Position numbers and translations under genes: made by a program
DNA from: a bacterium
GTDB lineage: Bacteria; UBP13; UBA5359
NCBI GenBank assembly: GCA_028685295.1
Contig: JAQUEL010000006.1
Span: 1-42,808, forward strand
Length of the DNA stretch: 42,808 bases
Direction of reading: 5' to 3'
Shown here: in pieces, positions 6,563-42,694 of the stretch
Position numbering within the stretch: the stretch's first letter is position 1
Layout of the letters: every line of letters begins with the position of its first letter
Notes under the pieces: generated by a model
The model's input: the letters and a program-made list of their open reading frames with translations, nothing else
Databases searched by the model: none
What the model was told of the DNA's origin: nothing

Positions 6563-6922
6563 TCAGCTTCTGGCTATCAATGCCACGCCAAGGCAAATTA
6601 TACATACGCCGGCCCAACGGACCATGCTAACGTGTTCCTTGAATACCAACCAGGATATCAACAGCACCGCCACATAACTCAACGATATCAGCGGGTAAGC
6701 AAAGCTGAGCTCGACCCTGGACAATACCAGCAACCAAATAAGAGTGCTTACAATATATAGGCCAAGACCTGCCCATACATAGGGCATCATGAATATTTTT
6801 ATCAACCTGGTGGTCACCAGGCTATCCGATGCCACATCGGCCCTCATTACACCCGACTTGATAAATACCTGTCCCAAAGCCCCAAGTAGAACCGAAATCA
6901 CTATCTGCTGCAAGGGTTTCAT
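6563..6922 (-). CDS. Small four-helix EamA/SMR-type membrane protein, ArnE/F-like
   Basis: This 119-residue protein has four hydrophobic helices and the SMR/EamA half-transporter pattern: a GQVFIKSGV turn in helix 1, SRVELSFAYPLISLSYVAVLL in helix 3 and a final GVCIICLGVALIAR helix. The closest described relatives are ArnE and ArnF, the subunits said to flip undecaprenyl-phosphate aminoarabinose. Its position between a polyprenyl phosphoribosyltransferase/WecG block and ugd supports flipping of a lipid-linked monosaccharide. Such proteins act as dimers, and only one copy is visible here. A drug/metabolite transporter role cannot be excluded. Confidence 0.8.
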   Translation of the reverse strand: MKPLQQIVISVLLGALGQVFIKSGVMRADVASDSLVTTRLIKIFMMPYVWAGLGLYIVSTLIWLLVLSRVELSFAYPLISLSYVAVLLISWLVFKEHVSMVRWAGVCIICLGVALIARS

Positions 6923-6946: not shown

Positions 6947-8713
6947 TTATTTTCTCTTTTCCTTTAGCTGTACATCAGTATGCCTTGCCCAGAGCGCCAG
7001 CAAAAGAAACTGCGGTATGGAGAGAATACGGCCGATCCTCTTCGGTTCTCGTGCTACGCGATAGACCCATTCAAGGCCACAACGCTGCATCCATGCCGGT
7101 GCCCGCTTCAAGCGTCCGGATATGACGTCAAAGCTCCCCCCTACGCCCATGCAAACCGGAACGCCCAGAGCATCCTTATAACGATCGATCCATTTTTCCT
7201 GCCTGGGAATACCAAAGGCCACAAAAAGAATATCCGGAGAAGCCTTTACAACATCACCAACTACGATTGCCTCTTCATCTTCGGGGTAGTACCCGTCACG
7301 AATACCGGCAACTTTAAGTCCGGGATACCGAGCCTTCAGCTTGTCAGCAGCCTCAAGGGCTACACCAGGCTTGGCACCCAGCAAATATATCGAATAACCC
7401 TTGTCGGCCGCCATTTTACATATAGCATTCAAAAGGTCAATCCCAGCCACTCTATCCTGAAGAGGATCCTGTAAGAGCCTTGATGCCAGCAAGACGCCCG
7501 CACCATCAGGCGTAACCAGGTCGGCATTGTTGATTATATTTTTCAACTGTTGATCTTCCCTGGCCTGCATAATAGCCGGCGCATTGGGTGTAACGACTAC
7601 GTGCGGGCGCTTTGTCCTGATAAAAACCTCAACCTGATGAAGCGCCTCATCCATATTCACATGGCTTACCTTGACATCCATTATCTCTATTGTGCTCCGG
7701 CCGGCCATGCGCTTTATAATTTGTCGGGGGGCAAGAAGAAGAACCAGAACAAAGAGCAGATAACCTACGATTATTCCGCCGACCAAAAACAAGAGCTTGA
7801 GCCATAACATCCATGTCACATTAGCAACGATTATAAGCGCCAGCAGACAGAGATAGGCTGTAGATACGGTCATCAAGAGAATAACCGCCTTCTCGGATAT
7901 ACCTGCGTCCAACATAAAACGATATAAAAATGCTGCTGGTGTGTCTATGCTCATGGAAGACCGCTCATGCTTTATAGTAAAGGGATAAGCGCTGTTTACC
8001 AAAGGAATGCCCAGTACCATAACAGGTAGTAGGAATACCAATGAAGCAGTATATTTTAGTGCCCCGATAATAGCTATGCTTCCCAATAGATACCCCGGCA
8101 AAAGGCTTCCTCCGGCTGCTAAAACACCTCCTTTTCCATTATATCCAAGGAGCATGCCCAGAGAACATCCGGCCAACGCAAGAGACATAGCCATGGTATA
8201 AAAGATCTCCTGGCGCTGTATCAAAGCTGCCGCCGCAAAAGTCAAAGCGGATACCGCAGTCAGCCTTAAAGAGAGTCCCGGCAATTTATCGGTGCTCTCA
8301 TATATTTTTGAAGATAAAAGCAACCAGATAACCGTTACAGGCAGGGCATACCAGCCCAGGTTTATTCCTGTATCGACAGCGCTGGAATAAATACTCTCAA
8401 TACGTATACCATAGTAAAAAGCAACCGTTGCCATGAGGGCCGGTATGATAAATGTATAAATATCCTTTACTCTTCGTAAGCTGCGTACATATCCTAAAAT
8501 AACAATTATTCCGGAGCTGATGAGAAGACCGGTAAGCCTGTCGCCGACCCCCCCCTTGCCATCCAGAAGCAATGTCAAAGCAAAGGCCAGAAAGAGCACG
8601 GCTTCTCCGGACAAACGAAACTTTCCAGCGCACGCTGCGGAAAATTTCACCAACAGAAAAGAAAAGAGCATGCCTGCCGGAACATACATAACGCCTTCCC
8701 AAAAGCCGGACAC
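6947..8713 (-). CDS. Fusion: degenerate PNPT (TagO/WecA-like) membrane domain + WecG/TagA/CpsF glycosyltransferase
   Basis: Residues 1-330 form about ten membrane helices that track the TagO/WecA/MraY fold, for example GGSLLPGYLLGSIAIIGALK (family: GDtGSlflGf) and MLDAGISEKAVILL (family: Ld.GlS...av). Residues 340-575 are a WecG/TagA/CpsF transferase, with VVVTPNAPAIMQA, ADLVTPDGAGVLLA, GYSIYLLGAKPG and FVAFGIPRQEKWI all present. The membrane half has lost the key residues: the DD after the lG motif reads YV (75-76), the NxxNxxDGxDG block keeps only Asp142, the GDxGS Asp is Ala200, and the HxHH motif reads FLYR (262-265). I infer an active cytoplasmic N-acetyl-aminosugar transferase tethered to a non-catalytic scaffold, possibly one that binds lipid carrier. 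The ATG overlaps no neighbour and lies 2 bases after the UbiA gene. Confidence 0.85.
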   Translation of the reverse strand: MSGFWEGVMYVPAGMLFSFLLVKFSAACAGKFRLSGEAVLFLAFALTLLLDGKGGVGDRLTGLLISSGIIVILGYVRSLRRVKDIYTFIIPALMATVAFYYGIRIESIYSSAVDTGINLGWYALPVTVIWLLLSSKIYESTDKLPGLSLRLTAVSALTFAAAALIQRQEIFYTMAMSLALAGCSLGMLLGYNGKGGVLAAGGSLLPGYLLGSIAIIGALKYTASLVFLLPVMVLGIPLVNSAYPFTIKHERSSMSIDTPAAFLYRFMLDAGISEKAVILLMTVSTAYLCLLALIIVANVTWMLWLKLLFLVGGIIVGYLLFVLVLLLAPRQIIKRMAGRSTIEIMDVKVSHVNMDEALHQVEVFIRTKRPHVVVTPNAPAIMQAREDQQLKNIINNADLVTPDGAGVLLASRLLQDPLQDRVAGIDLLNAICKMAADKGYSIYLLGAKPGVALEAADKLKARYPGLKVAGIRDGYYPEDEEAIVVGDVVKASPDILFVAFGIPRQEKWIDRYKDALGVPVCMGVGGSFDVISGRLKRAPAWMQRCGLEWVYRVAREPKRIGRILSIPQFLLLALWARHTDVQLKEKRK

Positions 8714-8715
8714 AT

Positions 8716-9642
8716 TTACCTCCCGTTAAACTGCATAATGATGATCGCCAGAATCGACCATATTATGAAGTTGATTATCATCGGCTTATCCGTAAACATC
8801 TGTTCAGGAGCACCGCCGATATCCCTATTATGCGTCAAATAAAGGTATCTGAAAAGACCGTAAATTACAAAGGGTATAGTCAACATAAGCATAGGACTGT
8901 GTCCCGTATAAAATGTATAAAGCGAATAAGCCATAATTATGGTGGACATAGTGACGGATATCAGCTGATCCAACATCTCGATGCTGTACATCTTTAAAAC
9001 GATTCGATGCATACCGGAACGCTCACCTAAAAGCTGAAGCTCATGCCGCCTCTTGCAAAGCGCCAGAAATAACGCCAGCAGAAGCGAGCAAATAACAATC
9101 CAGGGTGATATATCGGGAGCTACAAGAACACATCCGGCTATGACCCGTAGAACGAAACCTCCCGCGATCGTCAGAATATCGACAAAGATTATATTTTTCA
9201 AAGTTATGGAATATAGGACTGTCAGTAGATAATAGCAAGCCGCTGTTAAGGCAAAGCGCAATCCAAGCGAGAATAAAATCATACCTGCGCCAGCCAGGAC
9301 AACCATTAGCAATGCATATACATAAGCAGCTGCTATACTTATTCGGCCGGAAGCCAGCGGACGGTAAGCTTTCTGGGGATGCCGGCGATCCTTCTCAAGA
9401 TCAATGATATCATTTATGATATATGCCGACCCGGACAGCAAACAAAAAACAGAGATCGCCGAGAAAACCTTTATCAGCATATGAAGGTTCGTAAAGTTAC
9501 CGGAAAAAATCAACCCGGCCGCCAGGAATATGTTTTTAACCCATTGATGCGGTCTTATTTCCAGCAACAGGTCCTTCAGCTTACTGTTAAATACAGCCTG
9601 GCGACTGGAGTATGCTCTCGATTGCTTCTCTAAGATTGTCAT
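8716..9642 (-). CDS. UbiA-family polyprenyl-phosphate phosphoribosyltransferase-like
   Basis: This 308-residue protein has eight or nine hydrophobic helices and the first UbiA metal/diphosphate motif as NDIIDLEKDRRHPQKAYRPLASG (residues about 77-99). The second region is YSITLKNIIFVDIL. The LLLEIRPHQWVKNIFLAAGLIFSG start is characteristic of the branch containing decaprenyl-phosphate phosphoribosyltransferase (mycobacterial Rv3806c), which makes decaprenyl-phosphoryl-5-phosphoribose from PRPP. A quinone prenyltransferase role is less likely. The ATG follows AGGTGA and overlaps the end of the aroKB gene by 56 bases. No later in-frame start fits, so the overlap seems real. The DprE1/DprE2 epimerase genes that would turn ribose into arabinose are not in the window. 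Confidence 0.85.
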   Translation of the reverse strand: MTILEKQSRAYSSRQAVFNSKLKDLLLEIRPHQWVKNIFLAAGLIFSGNFTNLHMLIKVFSAISVFCLLSGSAYIINDIIDLEKDRRHPQKAYRPLASGRISIAAAYVYALLMVVLAGAGMILFSLGLRFALTAACYYLLTVLYSITLKNIIFVDILTIAGGFVLRVIAGCVLVAPDISPWIVICSLLLALFLALCKRRHELQLLGERSGMHRIVLKMYSIEMLDQLISVTMSTIIMAYSLYTFYTGHSPMLMLTIPFVIYGLFRYLYLTHNRDIGGAPEQMFTDKPMIINFIIWSILAIIIMQFNGR

Positions 9643-11194
9643 CGTTCACCTGTTTTACAATGCCGACCTTTCCAATCCCTTCCGCCAGGATGAAACTGGG
9701 CACGGAATCCACACATTTCTTATCTCTGGAGAGGGCGGCCAGCACATCAGATATTTTTTCGGACGCATATTTCAAAGATAATCCAAACCTGCTGATTAAA
9801 CTGTTTTGCCGCCATTCGTCTTCACGGGATAAAAGCCCCTCAAGCACCGATAGCCTGGCGGCGGCGGCCATACCTGCGGCCACAGCCTCACCATGAACTA
9901 TTGAGCTATAGCCGCCTGCATACTCCAGCGCATGACCAATAGTATGTCCGTAATTAAGAATTGCTCTTTGGCCTTCTTCGCGTTCATCTTCGGATACCAC
10001 CAGCGATTTTATCAAACAGGATTTATTGATTACTTCGGTAATCGTATCAGGCTGCAACGCGAGTATCTGCGGCGCTGATCGCTCTAAAAATCTGAAAAAG
10101 CAAGTATCGTAAATGATACCATATTTAATTACCTCTGCCAAACCGGCCCGTATCTCACGCATCGGTAAAGTTCTGAGAAAATTCGTTTCCGCTATAACCA
10201 GGCGCGGCTGATAAAAAGCACCTATCAGATTTTTGGTCAGAGGATGATTAACAGCAACCTTACCGCCGACACTGCTATCCACCTGCGCCAATAGAGTGGT
10301 CGGAGCCTGAAAGAAGGCCAGCCCCCGCATATATGTTGAAGCTACAAATCCGGCCAGATCACCTACCACGCCTCCGCCAAGCGCCAACACACCGGATGAC
10401 CTATCAAAACCGTATTGCAGCAATACATCGTATATCCGCTCTGCCTCAGAGAGTGTCTTAGAAGCTTCTCCAGCTTTCAATACAATAGGATATACGGCAT
10501 AAGTGCCTTTCAAATCATCGGATACCCTATCCAAATAGAGCGGCGCAACATTATCATCCGTAATAAGAGCTAATTTTCCTTCAAAGCCGGTAGCTGCAAT
10601 TCTCTCATGCCAGGCATCAATCCGCTCTGAAATGAGAATCTCATATGATCTTTTCTTCAGATCGACAGTCACGGATGATTCATGAAGCATGGAAGACGAG
10701 CTTAATCTATCAAAAATTGCCTTTGCAACATCCTGAGGAGAGAGGTTATCGGTCTCGATAAAGATATCGGCCTTACCATAGCCCGCTTCTCTTTCAGCCA
10801 TGAGAGCCGCCAGTTTTTCTCTATCGCCATCTATCTTGTTAAGCAGGGGGCGACCCGGAGCATCAGCCAGCCTCACCGCCGCCGTTTGCGGAGATACTCT
10901 CAGGACTATTAACAGCCCCTTTTTTTTGAGGACATGGATATTTTCGGTATTGACAAGGGCCCCTCCACCAATGGCAATTACCTTGTCCTCACCCTTTATG
11001 CCGGCCAAGACCGAGCTTTCAAGCTCTCTGAAGAAACCCTCTCCTTCATCACGAAAGATACTATCTATCGATTTACCGGCCTTGGTCTCTATCAGGCTAT
11101 CGGTATCTAGAAAGTCAATTCCCATCATACGTGCCAGAAGAGGTCCCACGCTGCTCTTGCCGCTTCCCATAAATCCCGCAAGAATGATATTCAT
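9587..11194 (-). CDS. aroKB: Bifunctional shikimate kinase / 3-dehydroquinate synthase
   Basis: Two shikimate-pathway enzymes are fused in one 535-residue chain. Residues 1-165 are shikimate kinase, with P-loop GFMGSGKSS (7-15), substrate-binding DTDSLIE and IAIGGGALV. Residues about 180-535 are 3-dehydroquinate synthase, with GGGVVGDLAGFVAS, TTLLAQVDSSVGGK and the metal-binding NYGHTIGHALEY. The linker near SSSSMLHESS is short and polar. Such fusions are known, for instance in Thermotoga. The order of catalysis is not adjacent: AroB makes the first ring compound and AroK acts three steps later. It sits 14 bases after aroC and overlaps the following UbiA gene. Confidence 0.95.
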   Translation of the reverse strand: MNIILAGFMGSGKSSVGPLLARMMGIDFLDTDSLIETKAGKSIDSIFRDEGEGFFRELESSVLAGIKGEDKVIAIGGGALVNTENIHVLKKKGLLIVLRVSPQTAAVRLADAPGRPLLNKIDGDREKLAALMAEREAGYGKADIFIETDNLSPQDVAKAIFDRLSSSSMLHESSVTVDLKKRSYEILISERIDAWHERIAATGFEGKLALITDDNVAPLYLDRVSDDLKGTYAVYPIVLKAGEASKTLSEAERIYDVLLQYGFDRSSGVLALGGGVVGDLAGFVASTYMRGLAFFQAPTTLLAQVDSSVGGKVAVNHPLTKNLIGAFYQPRLVIAETNFLRTLPMREIRAGLAEVIKYGIIYDTCFFRFLERSAPQILALQPDTITEVINKSCLIKSLVVSEDEREEGQRAILNYGHTIGHALEYAGGYSSIVHGEAVAAGMAAAARLSVLEGLLSREDEWRQNSLISRFGLSLKYASEKISDVLAALSRDKKCVDSVPSFILAEGIGKVGIVKQVNDDNLREAIESILQSPGCI

Positions 11195-39131: not shown

Positions 39132-40193
39132 ATGAGAATATCATCAAAGCTATTATTCATAATTGCCGCCGTTCTCATTTCGATCATGTCTATTCTTCCC
39201 CACGGTTCATGCGCAGAACCGGAAGCAAAGCAGGCTAAGGCCACGGTAGAAGAGTGTCTTGACTACAGTGCCGCTTTTCTGGCTCAAGAAGAGTATGATA
39301 ATGGCATAGCCTGGATAGATTATGGGCTTAAAATACACCAGAATGATCCGCGTTTAGGCATTGCTCAGCAAGCCGTACGGCTACTCCATGCCAAGCCCGA
39401 AGAGAGAGATAACCTTATTGGCAGCATACGAGAGTTAATGAAGAATGCCGGTATATCAAAGCCGGATGAATCGCTAAGAGCTCTTTTGATTTATTCCGGC
39501 TTTTATCTGCATAAAATATCTGTCGATGGATTTATTATCGTTGATAAAGTAGTTTTTGAAATGCAGGAAGCACCTGTCGACGTTTTATTTGTCGGTTTTA
39601 TAAAAAAATCTGTAAAGATATCGGGAAGCAACGATCTTAAGATTAAATCAAAAAATGAATGGACCGCTTATATATTATTGAGGAACAATTCGGATATCGA
39701 TTTTGGGCGTAAAAACGCAGCCAGGCTTATTCTGGAAACAGACTCAACTCCTCCGGCAAAACCTGCAACGGAAGGCCTGGATCAGGATATGATGCTGTTG
39801 ATGCCGGGTGCCCGGGACGGCATCCCCGCTAATACCCCAAGAAAAGCTCCGGAGCGCAAAGCCATACAACGCACGCCAAAGTTTACAACCGCAGAGGAGC
39901 AACCCAGGCAACCCGATACTTTTCAGCAAGATGCTTCCGAGACTGATCTTGTCAGTCGCAACAACGAGAACATGCATTATGAAATAGACCTTACCATCGG
40001 TCCCAGAGAATTTAAACATATTATCCTTGATAAGCCGAGCTTCTTCCTTGATAACGACCTGAAGCCCGAAGGATACACGGTTACGGTTTCCTGGGTTCAA
40101 AATACCAAGGATCCATATACTTGTCAGGCCTTCACCGATACCATTGCTGTTACAGAGGATCAACTGGAAACTCAGCCGGTTAATAAGAACTAG
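39132..40193 (+). CDS. Exported protein of unknown function
   Basis: I do not recognise this 353-residue protein. It has a clear signal peptide (hydrophobic 7-22) with a likely signal peptidase I site after SCA (residue 28). The Cys is not in a lipobox. Residues 35-130 are helical and loosely TPR-like (EYDNGIAWIDYGLKIHQNDPRLGIAQQ). A beta-rich stretch (130-210) is followed by a Pro/Gln-rich linker (about 215-275). The C-terminal 80 residues (YEIDLTIGPREFKHIILDKPS ... YTVTVSWVQNTKDPYTCQ) suggest an Ig-like beta domain. AAGGAG precedes the ATG. It lies just before the ankyrin gene and is probably cotranscribed. Confidence 0.85.
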   Translation: MRISSKLLFIIAAVLISIMSILPHGSCAEPEAKQAKATVEECLDYSAAFLAQEEYDNGIAWIDYGLKIHQNDPRLGIAQQAVRLLHAKPEERDNLIGSIRELMKNAGISKPDESLRALLIYSGFYLHKISVDGFIIVDKVVFEMQEAPVDVLFVGFIKKSVKISGSNDLKIKSKNEWTAYILLRNNSDIDFGRKNAARLILETDSTPPAKPATEGLDQDMMLLMPGARDGIPANTPRKAPERKAIQRTPKFTTAEEQPRQPDTFQQDASETDLVSRNNENMHYEIDLTIGPREFKHIILDKPSFFLDNDLKPEGYTVTVSWVQNTKDPYTCQAFTDTIAVTEDQLETQPVNKN

Positions 40194-40216
40194 ACATCAT
40201 GGTAGAAAGAGGAATT

Positions 40217-42694
40217 ATGAACAGATTATTCATCTATATATTTCTACTGTTCTTTTTCTGCATGCCGACCATGGCAACGGCTTCCAATATATACGATATG
40301 ATCAATCACGGAGACCTGCAGGGCGTAAATGCGCTTATCGAAGCATCCTCCGAGCTTTTAAGCGCTATCGATAACGAGGGTTTGACACTGCTCCATTGGG
40401 CGGTAATCAAAGGGCAAACGGATATAGTCAAGTTCCTGCTTGCCAAGGGTGCGAATATAGCTGTTTATGATAAAAACGGCCTGGCCCCCTTGGACTGGGC
40501 TATAAGACTTAAGCGTAGCAACCTTGTAGAATATCTGCAAACCGTTGCCACAGAAACAACTATACACACTTTAGCAAAGAACGGTGATATTACCGGCCTA
40601 GCTGCTTTATTAAAAGCTAATCCGGCCTTCTTAAACGCCAGGGATGAGGATGGAGCAACGCCTCTTCGTTGCGCTGCCATGGCGCACCAAAGTAAAATTT
40701 TCGACTACCTTGTCGCTAATGGGGCCAGGCCAAGTTTGATCGATTATATAATCAATAGGGATATTGAGAAAGTTCAGACACTCATTAACAGTAAACCTAT
40801 GCTCGTTGAATATGCGGAGAACGGCCTATTGCCCCTGCACGCAGCCGTAAGATATTCAACAACAGAGATAGCCAATGCCTTGCTGCAACGTTCTGCCAAT
40901 GCAAATGCAAAGGATGAGAAATCGCTCACAGCTCTGCACTACGCCGCATCGGAAGGAAAACGAGCTATGGTCCTGCTTCTTCTTGATAAAGGAGCAAATA
41001 TTGAAATTAAGGATAAAACAGGCTTTACCCCTTTGCATAAAGCCGCATTTAACGGCAAAACGGAGATCGTTGAACTGCTGCTTATGCGCGGAGCTAATGC
41101 AAATTGCAGAGACAACGCCGGTGAAACGCCTTTGCACAAAGCCACCTTCTGGGGTTATCAAGATATCGCCAGAGCGCTGCTCAGCCATGCAGCCGAAGTC
41201 AATGTCGTTAATGCCAGCCAATGGTCTCCATTACATTTTGCCGCCTTATGGGGCCATATTGCCTTTGCCCGCTTACTTATCAGCAACGGCGCCAATGTTA
41301 ATGCAGTAGATAACGACGGCATGACCCCTTTACACAAAACGGCTTTTTGGGGACATCTGGATATGGCGCATCTTCTCATATCATGCAAAGCCGATATTGA
41401 CATTCTGGACAATAAAGGTTTTACCCCACTCTATTGGGCGGTTATCTGTGAACACAGTAAAGTGGCCTGGCTTCTCACCAACCAGGGTGCCGATATTAAC
41501 TCCAGAGATAAAGAGGGCTATACGGCACTTCACAAGGCAGCTCTCAGCGGTAGTGAAAAAGAGGCTACTGACCTGCTTGCCGCAGGTGCGGATATTAACG
41601 CACCTGATAATATCGGCAACACACCTCTTCACCTGAGTGCCAACAGTGATTTTCCTAATATGATCAAATGGCTTATCGATAACGGCGCAAAGGTCAATGC
41701 CGCTAACGATACAGGAGAAACGCCATTACATCTTGCCGTGGCAAAAGGCTTACAGCAAACTCAGGTCATCCTGCAGACAAAGAGTACGAAGGTAAATATT
41801 GCCGATAAGAATGGAATAACACCTTTGCACAAGGCTGCCGCACAGGATATATTGGAAATACCCAAACTACTGATAAGCTATAAAGCTAACGTGAACGCGC
41901 CCTCTATCGATAAAATCACTCCATTGCATATAGCCGTTAGAAGAGGGCATCTAAGTATAACAAACATTTTAATCGCTAATGGTGCGGATGTTGATGCAGC
42001 AAATGCAGATGGCTGGACAGCCCTGCATCTTGCCGCTTATAGCGGTTATACGGAGATTGTTGCTTCGCTGATACTCTTCGGAGCCAACGTCAACCCGACC
42101 CTCACCACGGGCATAACACCGCTTCACCTGGCTTCACTCACCGATTACAAGGAGATAGTAAGTCTCCTGATAAAGAATACAGCGAATGTTAATATGAAAG
42201 ATCTCAACGGATGGACGCCACTGCATAATGCTACCTACAAAAGCAATATAAATATTGCTGCCATGCTTCTGAACGCCGACGCCGATATAAATGCCTCGAA
42301 TAATGAAAAGCTCACACCGCTGCACTATGCAGCCAATGCAGGCAATAAAGAGATGGTAAATATCCTGCTTACTAATAAAGCAAATATTAATGCGCAGGAT
42401 GCCAAGAAATGGACTCCACTGCATAACGCGGTTTTTAACGGGTTTGATAGCATCGTCAAAACTCTTCTGGAAAAAGGCGCCGATCCAAACGCACGCAATG
42501 ACAAAGATCTCACGCCTTTACATTTTTCCGCCAATGCGGGTAATAAAAATATAGTACTCATGCTCTTGGATAAAGGAGCAACTCCGGGTATTAGAGATAT
42601 TGCCAAGCATACGCCCATGTATTACGCCATGAGAAACGGTTTTACCGACATAGTCGCCCTCCTTCAGGCTGCTGCAGATCCAGAGAAGAGATAG
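40217..42694 (+). CDS. Exported giant ankyrin-repeat protein
   Basis: This 825-residue protein has a signal peptide (MNRLFIYIFLLFFFCMPTMATA, cut near residue 22) followed by ankyrin repeats to its end. About 22 repeats carry the canonical xTPLHxAAxxG start and the LLxxGAxVNxxDxxG end. Three more in the first third lack TPLH and read like NGDLxGVxALI-type helical caps, each followed by one or two canonical repeats. From residue about 195 the repeats are a regular 33-residue array. There is no catalytic domain and no C-terminal anchor. The frame extends to 40199, but ATG 40217 follows AAGAGGA. Such solenoids bind proteins. The partner is unknown, and periplasm or outside is the likely location. 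Confidence 0.92.
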   Translation: MNRLFIYIFLLFFFCMPTMATASNIYDMINHGDLQGVNALIEASSELLSAIDNEGLTLLHWAVIKGQTDIVKFLLAKGANIAVYDKNGLAPLDWAIRLKRSNLVEYLQTVATETTIHTLAKNGDITGLAALLKANPAFLNARDEDGATPLRCAAMAHQSKIFDYLVANGARPSLIDYIINRDIEKVQTLINSKPMLVEYAENGLLPLHAAVRYSTTEIANALLQRSANANAKDEKSLTALHYAASEGKRAMVLLLLDKGANIEIKDKTGFTPLHKAAFNGKTEIVELLLMRGANANCRDNAGETPLHKATFWGYQDIARALLSHAAEVNVVNASQWSPLHFAALWGHIAFARLLISNGANVNAVDNDGMTPLHKTAFWGHLDMAHLLISCKADIDILDNKGFTPLYWAVICEHSKVAWLLTNQGADINSRDKEGYTALHKAALSGSEKEATDLLAAGADINAPDNIGNTPLHLSANSDFPNMIKWLIDNGAKVNAANDTGETPLHLAVAKGLQQTQVILQTKSTKVNIADKNGITPLHKAAAQDILEIPKLLISYKANVNAPSIDKITPLHIAVRRGHLSITNILIANGADVDAANADGWTALHLAAYSGYTEIVASLILFGANVNPTLTTGITPLHLASLTDYKEIVSLLIKNTANVNMKDLNGWTPLHNATYKSNINIAAMLLNADADINASNNEKLTPLHYAANAGNKEMVNILLTNKANINAQDAKKWTPLHNAVFNGFDSIVKTLLEKGADPNARNDKDLTPLHFSANAGNKNIVLMLLDKGATPGIRDIAKHTPMYYAMRNGFTDIVALLQAAADPEKR

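Follow-up and report, generated by a model that had tools for sequence, protein, structure and literature searches.

TagO/WecA makes a lipid-PP-sugar and TagA/WecG extends that product, so the two are consecutive enzymes. In the window, by which we mean the whole 42,808-nucleotide stretch of a UBP13 contig (JAQUEL010000006.1) analyzed here, a single gene carries parts related to both. The initial annotation described its membrane part as a TagO/WecA-like domain with a lost active site, and its second part as an intact WecG-type glycosyltransferase. Why, then, would a cell keep an apparently dead copy of the first enzyme joined to a seemingly intact copy of the second?

Layout of the fusion gene

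The open reading frame spans positions 6947-8713 on the minus strand, where the initial annotation had placed it, and starts with GTG; its 588 codons contain no internal stops and encode 588 amino acids. Residues 1-335 form a divergent PNPT of the TagO/WecA/MraY type, and the C-terminal half is an intact WecG/TagA. On the same strand, the PNPT-like membrane domain itself covers residues 1-300 (7814-8713) with ten helices by homology, an additional helix follows at residues 301-330 (7724-7813), and the WecG/TagA (GT26) domain with its C-terminal appendage occupies residues 340-578 (6980-7696).

Homology of the membrane half to PNPTs

Profiles were used to analyze the origin of the membrane half. 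By hhalign, 50 fused N-terminal halves, 47 of which were from Armatimonadota, matched six standalone TagO-type proteins with a probability of 99.9% (E=6e-32) over 299 columns. When the PDB was searched with the profile of the fused N-terminal half, the sole matches were two MraY chains, with E-values of 1e-9 and 8e-7. PF00953 scored 37.6 bits on the window fusion, compared to a cut-off of 27, when the gene was searched within its genome; at least eight fusions were above this cut-off, and the least diverged ones reached 69 and 51 bits. The MraY model TIGR00445 gave E=0.068 on the window protein. The PNPT half was not detected by hmmscan with the whole protein or the N-terminal half, or by phmmer against the PDB with the single sequence. 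AF2 prediction of the membrane half, made with few input sequences, showed a pLDDT of about 30-45. Given the profile-profile match and the PF00953 score over the cut-off, the PNPT identity of the membrane half is settled without a structure, which bears out the original reading of about the first 330 residues as TagO/WecA-like.

Loss of the PNPT active site

Alignment showed that the catalytic motifs of active PNPTs are replaced in the window protein (coordinates on the minus strand). The DD position reads R77-S78 (8480-8485), and DGxDG reads D142-K-L-P145-G, where the first Asp (D142) is retained and Pro replaces the second (DGxD part, 8279-8290). The GDxGS motif reads A199-A200-G-G-S, with A200 (8114-8116) at the position of the Mg-binding Asp, and HxHH reads F262-L-Y-R265 (7919-7930). 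The initial annotation had identified P145, A200, and F262-L-Y-R265 correctly, but its DD position, Y75-V76, was two residues off. The cytoplasmic loop-1 motif HKxPxxGG was also absent. Acidic or His residues at shifted positions would have refuted the claimed loss; however, no Asp or His that could be realigned to the lost positions was found in the membrane half, which contains a single His, H249, that is not conserved in the orthologue L007.

Loss of key residues had been predicted for other fusions as well, and it was seen in all 52 aligned full-length members. Retention was calculated from 49 non-redundant fusions: none (0%) retained the second DGxDG Asp, the Mg-binding GDxGS Asp, or the last His of HxHH; of the two DD residues, the first Asp was present in 2% and the second in 59%. 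In standalone PNPTs (n=34), retention of the first DD Asp, the second DGxDG Asp, the GDxGS Asp, and the last His was 94-100%. The PNPT catalytic set is broken in every fusion. An intact bifunctional TagO-TagA enzyme was rejected. That the fused half has no PNPT activity is our inference, for which there are no activity data.

Many Armatimonadota fusions have the middle His of HxHH (69%), and many have the second DD Asp; the last His is replaced by Glu or Asp. The fused site in Armatimonadota may thus be remodelled rather than empty. These remnants (the second DD Asp in ~60% and the middle His in ~70% of the Armatimonadota fusions, with a conserved Glu/Asp for the last His) could suggest that the membrane half remains catalytic, with the DD Asp and HxH-Glu/Asp serving an altered chemistry on another nucleotide sugar or a lipid pyrophosphate. 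We consider this very improbable, because the GDxGS Mg-binding Asp and the second DGxDG Asp are absent in every fusion, as is the loop-1 motif that binds UDP. Furthermore, the UBP13 clade, to which the window belongs, has lost the second DD Asp and the HxH remnants too, with S or K, Y, and R instead.

A different motif change was observed in the standalone PNPTs of HRbin16-like Armatimonadota, where GTVGA replaces GDxGS (Mg-binding Asp to Thr) while DD, DGxDG, and HxHH are intact. These proteins (L060:603-1586(-), L061, L062:512-1477(-), L063, and L065) occur in genomes with a standalone WecG.

Conservation of the WecG/TagA half

PF03808 matched residues 397-563 of the window protein with E=2.4e-66 (223 bits, cut-off 27.4), and TIGR00696 scored 182.5 bits against a cut-off of 69. 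The AF2 model of this half had a pLDDT of mostly 75-95 up to residue 540 and 56-66 in the appendage. In Thermoanaerobacter italicus TagA, Thr37, Asp65, Gln167, Glu168, Arg214, Arg221, and Arg224 have been shown or proposed to be important (PMC6493773). Their equivalents are present in the window protein with unchanged spacing, namely T375 (7589-7591, minus strand), D403 (7505-7507, minus strand; equivalent of the catalytic base Asp65), Q505, E506, R552, R559, and R562. All seven catalytic and appendage residues were invariant in 55 of 55 fusions, and together with the PF03808 match they uphold the claim of an intact WecG half. The position of TagA Arg83 is Arg or Lys in the fusions, and that of Asn39 is Asn in the window and Asp in Armatimonadota.

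The best-scoring NCBIfam model was the TarA equivalog NF041710, which stands for ManNAc transfer, yet its 204.3 bits were below the equivalog cut-off of 350. Thus, judged from model scores, ManNAc is the likely donor sugar but is not assigned. In all 32 fusion genomes tested there was exactly one WecG domain, always the fused one, indicating that these cells have no WecG-family enzyme other than the fusion.

A WecG domain was also observed at the end of a Cloacimonadota contig (L014:1440-3713(+)), in an open reading frame that combines WecG with a GT4-type glycosyltransferase and part of a bacterial sugar transferase. Only positions 88-178 of 179 of PF02397 are covered by the sugar transferase part, which may be what is left of another priming enzyme that was joined to WecG independently.

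The added helix and predicted topology

By hydropathy, 51 of 52 fusions showed two segments after the conserved Gly, and 31 of 34 standalone PNPTs showed one. The ten-helix PNPT architecture is thus not matched by the fusions, which have ten helices by homology plus an 11th that is supported by hydropathy only. Positions conserved specifically in the fusions fall at approximately residues 287-326, where the hydrophobic segment is added after TM10. In DPAGT1, ten helices place both ends of the protein on the non-cytoplasmic side (PMC6218659). Because PNPTs are built in this way, an 11th helix is what a cytoplasmic TagA requires. The cytoplasmic location of the TagA half is accordingly no more than an inference from the helix count.

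Distribution and selection

The initial annotation had predicted that the same fusion would exist in other genomes, and it was found in both UBP13 and Armatimonadota. All three UBP13 genomes analyzed carry it, and the window protein shares 94% identity with its orthologue L006 and 77-78% with L007. At least 53 of 201 Armatimonadota genomes have a match spanning both halves with 33-47% identity; their open reading frames are mostly 540-660 amino acids long, and a few are cut by contig ends. No match spanning both halves was present among the listed best matches in 399 sampled genomes of the phylum that includes Anaerovirgula (Bacillota sensu lato), nor in 249 sampled Pseudomonadota genomes; the phylum names of the sampled sets were taken from the titles of their central loci. 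The fused PNPT halves formed one clade with an SH-aLRT support of 100. In the WecG-domain tree, the fusions were together on one side of a branch, but its support was no higher than 41. From the trees, a single fusion event is thus likely rather than proven.

The PNPT half is under purifying selection. Its dN/dS was 0.175 compared to L006 and about 0.12 compared to L007, although dS was near saturation in the latter comparison. Between the window and L007, identity was 72% in the PNPT half and 87% in the TagA half. Such fast divergence might suggest that the membrane half has lost all function and is a remnant in decay. This is hardly credible, and the data on selection and conservation already contradict it: an open frame of ~540-660 amino acids is retained in more than 50 species, dN/dS is 0.12-0.18, and the half contains invariant positions and one conserved added helix. 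Pseudogene decay was rejected on these grounds.

Near-invariant positions in the fusions were L119-G120 at the start of TM5, W130 in the middle of TM5, and G207, K220, P230, and P237 in TM8-TM9, together with G271, and the catalytic loops of the fused half vary freely. The freely varying active-site loops would be expected if the PNPT half were only a membrane anchor without any lipid-specific role; TagA works at the membrane (PMC6493773), and fusion to many helices would hold it there. This explanation seems rather improbable to us, since one helix would suffice for anchoring and the fused half has ten. Moreover, W130, K220, P237, and G271 are near-invariant across two phyla, and dN/dS is near 0.15.

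Pathway genes and gene neighbourhoods

A separate intact TagO had been predicted to be encoded elsewhere, and the window genome indeed has a TagO/WecA-type gene with all motifs on another contig (C63), where it adjoins a WecB-type UDP-GlcNAc 2-epimerase gene, named from sequence and not by family search. MraY is encoded on contig C76. Nearly all fusion genomes have one or more intact standalone PNPTs; none was found in one fusion genome, G468, which is possibly incomplete.

The main rival to the model proposed below builds on this coexistence. It holds that the PNPT half is mainly a partner of TagO, in which it replaces one subunit of a dimer so that a TagO-TagA complex passes Und-PP-GlcNAc directly. 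PNPTs are dimeric, as known for DPAGT1 and MraY (PMC6218659), an intact standalone PNPT is available in nearly all fusion genomes, and the fused half remains constrained despite a faster divergence than that of TagA. However, the dimer surfaces differ between MraY and DPAGT1 (PMC6218659), and G468 would lack the partner. As the main role, we regard TagO pairing as unlikely, though it deserves more weight than the other alternatives; it could be compatible with a carrier-presenting role at the same time.

The window genome also encodes CsaB (TIGR03609, 262.8 bits against a cut-off of 213.1) and SLH-domain proteins that include a porin-like barrel, and thus contains TagO, UDP-GlcNAc 2-epimerase, TagA, CsaB, and SLH proteins. 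CsaB was matched in 30 of 31 fusion genomes and exceeded the cut-off in 21 of them. In P. alvei, TagO and TagA make lipid-linked ManNAc-GlcNAc for a CsaB-pyruvylated polymer (PMC6030368), and SLH porins bind such polymers in diderm Terrabacteria (PMC10628300). By analogy with these systems, the fusion product most likely leads to a CsaB-pyruvylated secondary cell wall polymer, whose identity is inferred.

The tagO-wecB pair and csaB are on contigs other than that of the fusion. The fusion's immediate neighbours, both on the minus strand, are a UbiA-family gene resembling decaprenyl-phosphate phosphoribosyltransferase (8716-9642), located upstream with a 2-base gap, and a gene for an ArnF-like small membrane protein downstream (6563-6922). 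A UDP-glucose dehydrogenase gene comes next after these flanking genes, and the order UbiA-fusion-dehydrogenase is common to the window, L006, and L007. The location of tagO-wecB and csaB on other contigs counts against our model, as do these neighbours, which point to another branch of prenyl-phosphate sugar metabolism; they may represent a branch for polyprenyl-phosphate pentose in the same envelope. No shared glycan operon was found in the gene neighbourhoods of 20 Armatimonadota fusions.

In four Armatimonadota, S-adenosylhomocysteine hydrolase is encoded directly upstream of the fusion on the same strand (L164:7806-9071, L169:7683-9002, L174:10523-11863, and L176:7481-8776), and genes of similar length are at that position in several others. 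Elsewhere in the window, a shikimate kinase-3-dehydroquinate synthase fusion (AroK-AroB, 9587-11194) adjoins chorismate synthase in a type IV pilus/secretin region. An 831-aa protein consisting largely of ankyrin repeats (40199-42694) is preceded by a 353-aa protein without a Pfam match (39132-40193).

Proposed role of the membrane half

The loss of the active site, together with the selection that retains the domain, indicates that the dead TagO copy probably holds the lipid carrier for TagA. In DPAGT1, the Dol-P groove follows TMH5 and is located between TMH4 and TMH9, and a bend in TMH9 forms the groove (PMC6218659). The positions retained in the fusions lie largely around the corresponding lipid-groove helices, which by this analogy fits a domain that still holds a polyprenyl chain. 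The initial annotation had inferred that this half is a scaffold or a module for carrier binding. Although no lipid-binding data exist, this inference agrees with the pattern of conservation and with the additional 11th helix.

We therefore favour, with some reserve, a pseudoenzyme-enzyme fusion in which the dead PNPT anchors TagA and binds and presents its lipid acceptor, possibly while paired with TagO. In this model, an ancient copy of a TagO/WecA-type PNPT gene would have been joined in frame to the cell's sole TagA. The fused PNPT would have acquired the eleventh helix, placing TagA at the cytoplasmic face. It would also have lost the residues for Mg and UDP-GlcNAc binding and for phosphosugar transfer, and then been retained by selection. 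The separate intact TagO would produce undecaprenyl-PP-GlcNAc, WecB would supply UDP-ManNAc, and the fused TagA would add ManNAc. The dead half would serve as a permanent membrane anchor with the polyprenyl chain of the acceptor still bound in the old TM5/TM9 groove, and would present the GlcNAc-PP head group to TagA, perhaps in a pair with TagO. The polymer made from this product would be the attachment for SLH-domain outer-membrane porins. A property of TagA weighs against this model: the enzyme already binds membranes through an appendage of its own (PMC6493773) and does not strictly require an anchor.

MraY, WecA, human DPAGT1, and other polytopic PNPTs are drug targets and have been well studied. 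Neither a pseudoenzyme of the polytopic PNPT superfamily nor a paper on a PNPT-WecG/TagA fusion was found in the open-access literature, which does not cover most subscription journals. We tentatively extend our model to a two-phylum family of polytopic phosphoglycosyltransferase pseudoenzymes that act as lipid-acceptor modules, whose groove would capture Und-PP-GlcNAc from TagO and feed it to the fused TagA; this broader proposal is possible but still short of probable. In a domain that dropped catalysis and retained the lipid-groove positions, recognition of the lipid would be uncoupled from chemistry, and the fusion offers a direct test of how an intermediate is handed over between consecutive enzymes of lipid-linked glycan synthesis. 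It is also the sole TagA in a substantial part of Armatimonadota, where it probably serves a polymer that tethers the outer membrane.

Comparison with known systems

The fused membrane half resembles TagO/TarO/WecA (PF00953; PNPT superfamily with MraY and DPAGT1) in its fold family by profile-profile comparison, in helix order, and in the TM5/TM9 landmarks, including the LG..W, K, P, and G positions. In contrast, its DD, DGxDG, GDxGS, HxHH, and HKxPxxGG motifs are broken in every fusion, and it has an 11th helix and is fused to TagA. Another PNPT joined to a second domain in one chain was observed in Armatimonadota (L149:373-2184(-)), where a PNPT with GDCGS, and with DNMDG in place of DGxDG, is fused to CoA_binding_3. 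Unlike the fusions described here, this PNPT scores 125 bits, retains DD and GDxGS, and has no WecG domain.

Compared to other TagA/TarA/WecG (GT26) enzymes such as T. italicus TagA, the fusion shares the catalytic Thr, Asp, Gln, and Glu and the three appendage Arg residues with identical spacing, and the C-terminal membrane appendage is common to both (PMC6493773). However, T. italicus TagA is soluble and dimeric and docks on the membrane, whereas the fused TagA has a covalent link to a membrane domain of 11 helices. As for the pathway, the window genome has an enzyme set matching the TagO-TagA-CsaB pathway of Paenibacillus alvei (PMC6030368). It differs in that the genes are dispersed, the host is of the diderm type and has OmpM-like SLH-porins (PMC10628300), and TagA is fused to a second, inactive PNPT.
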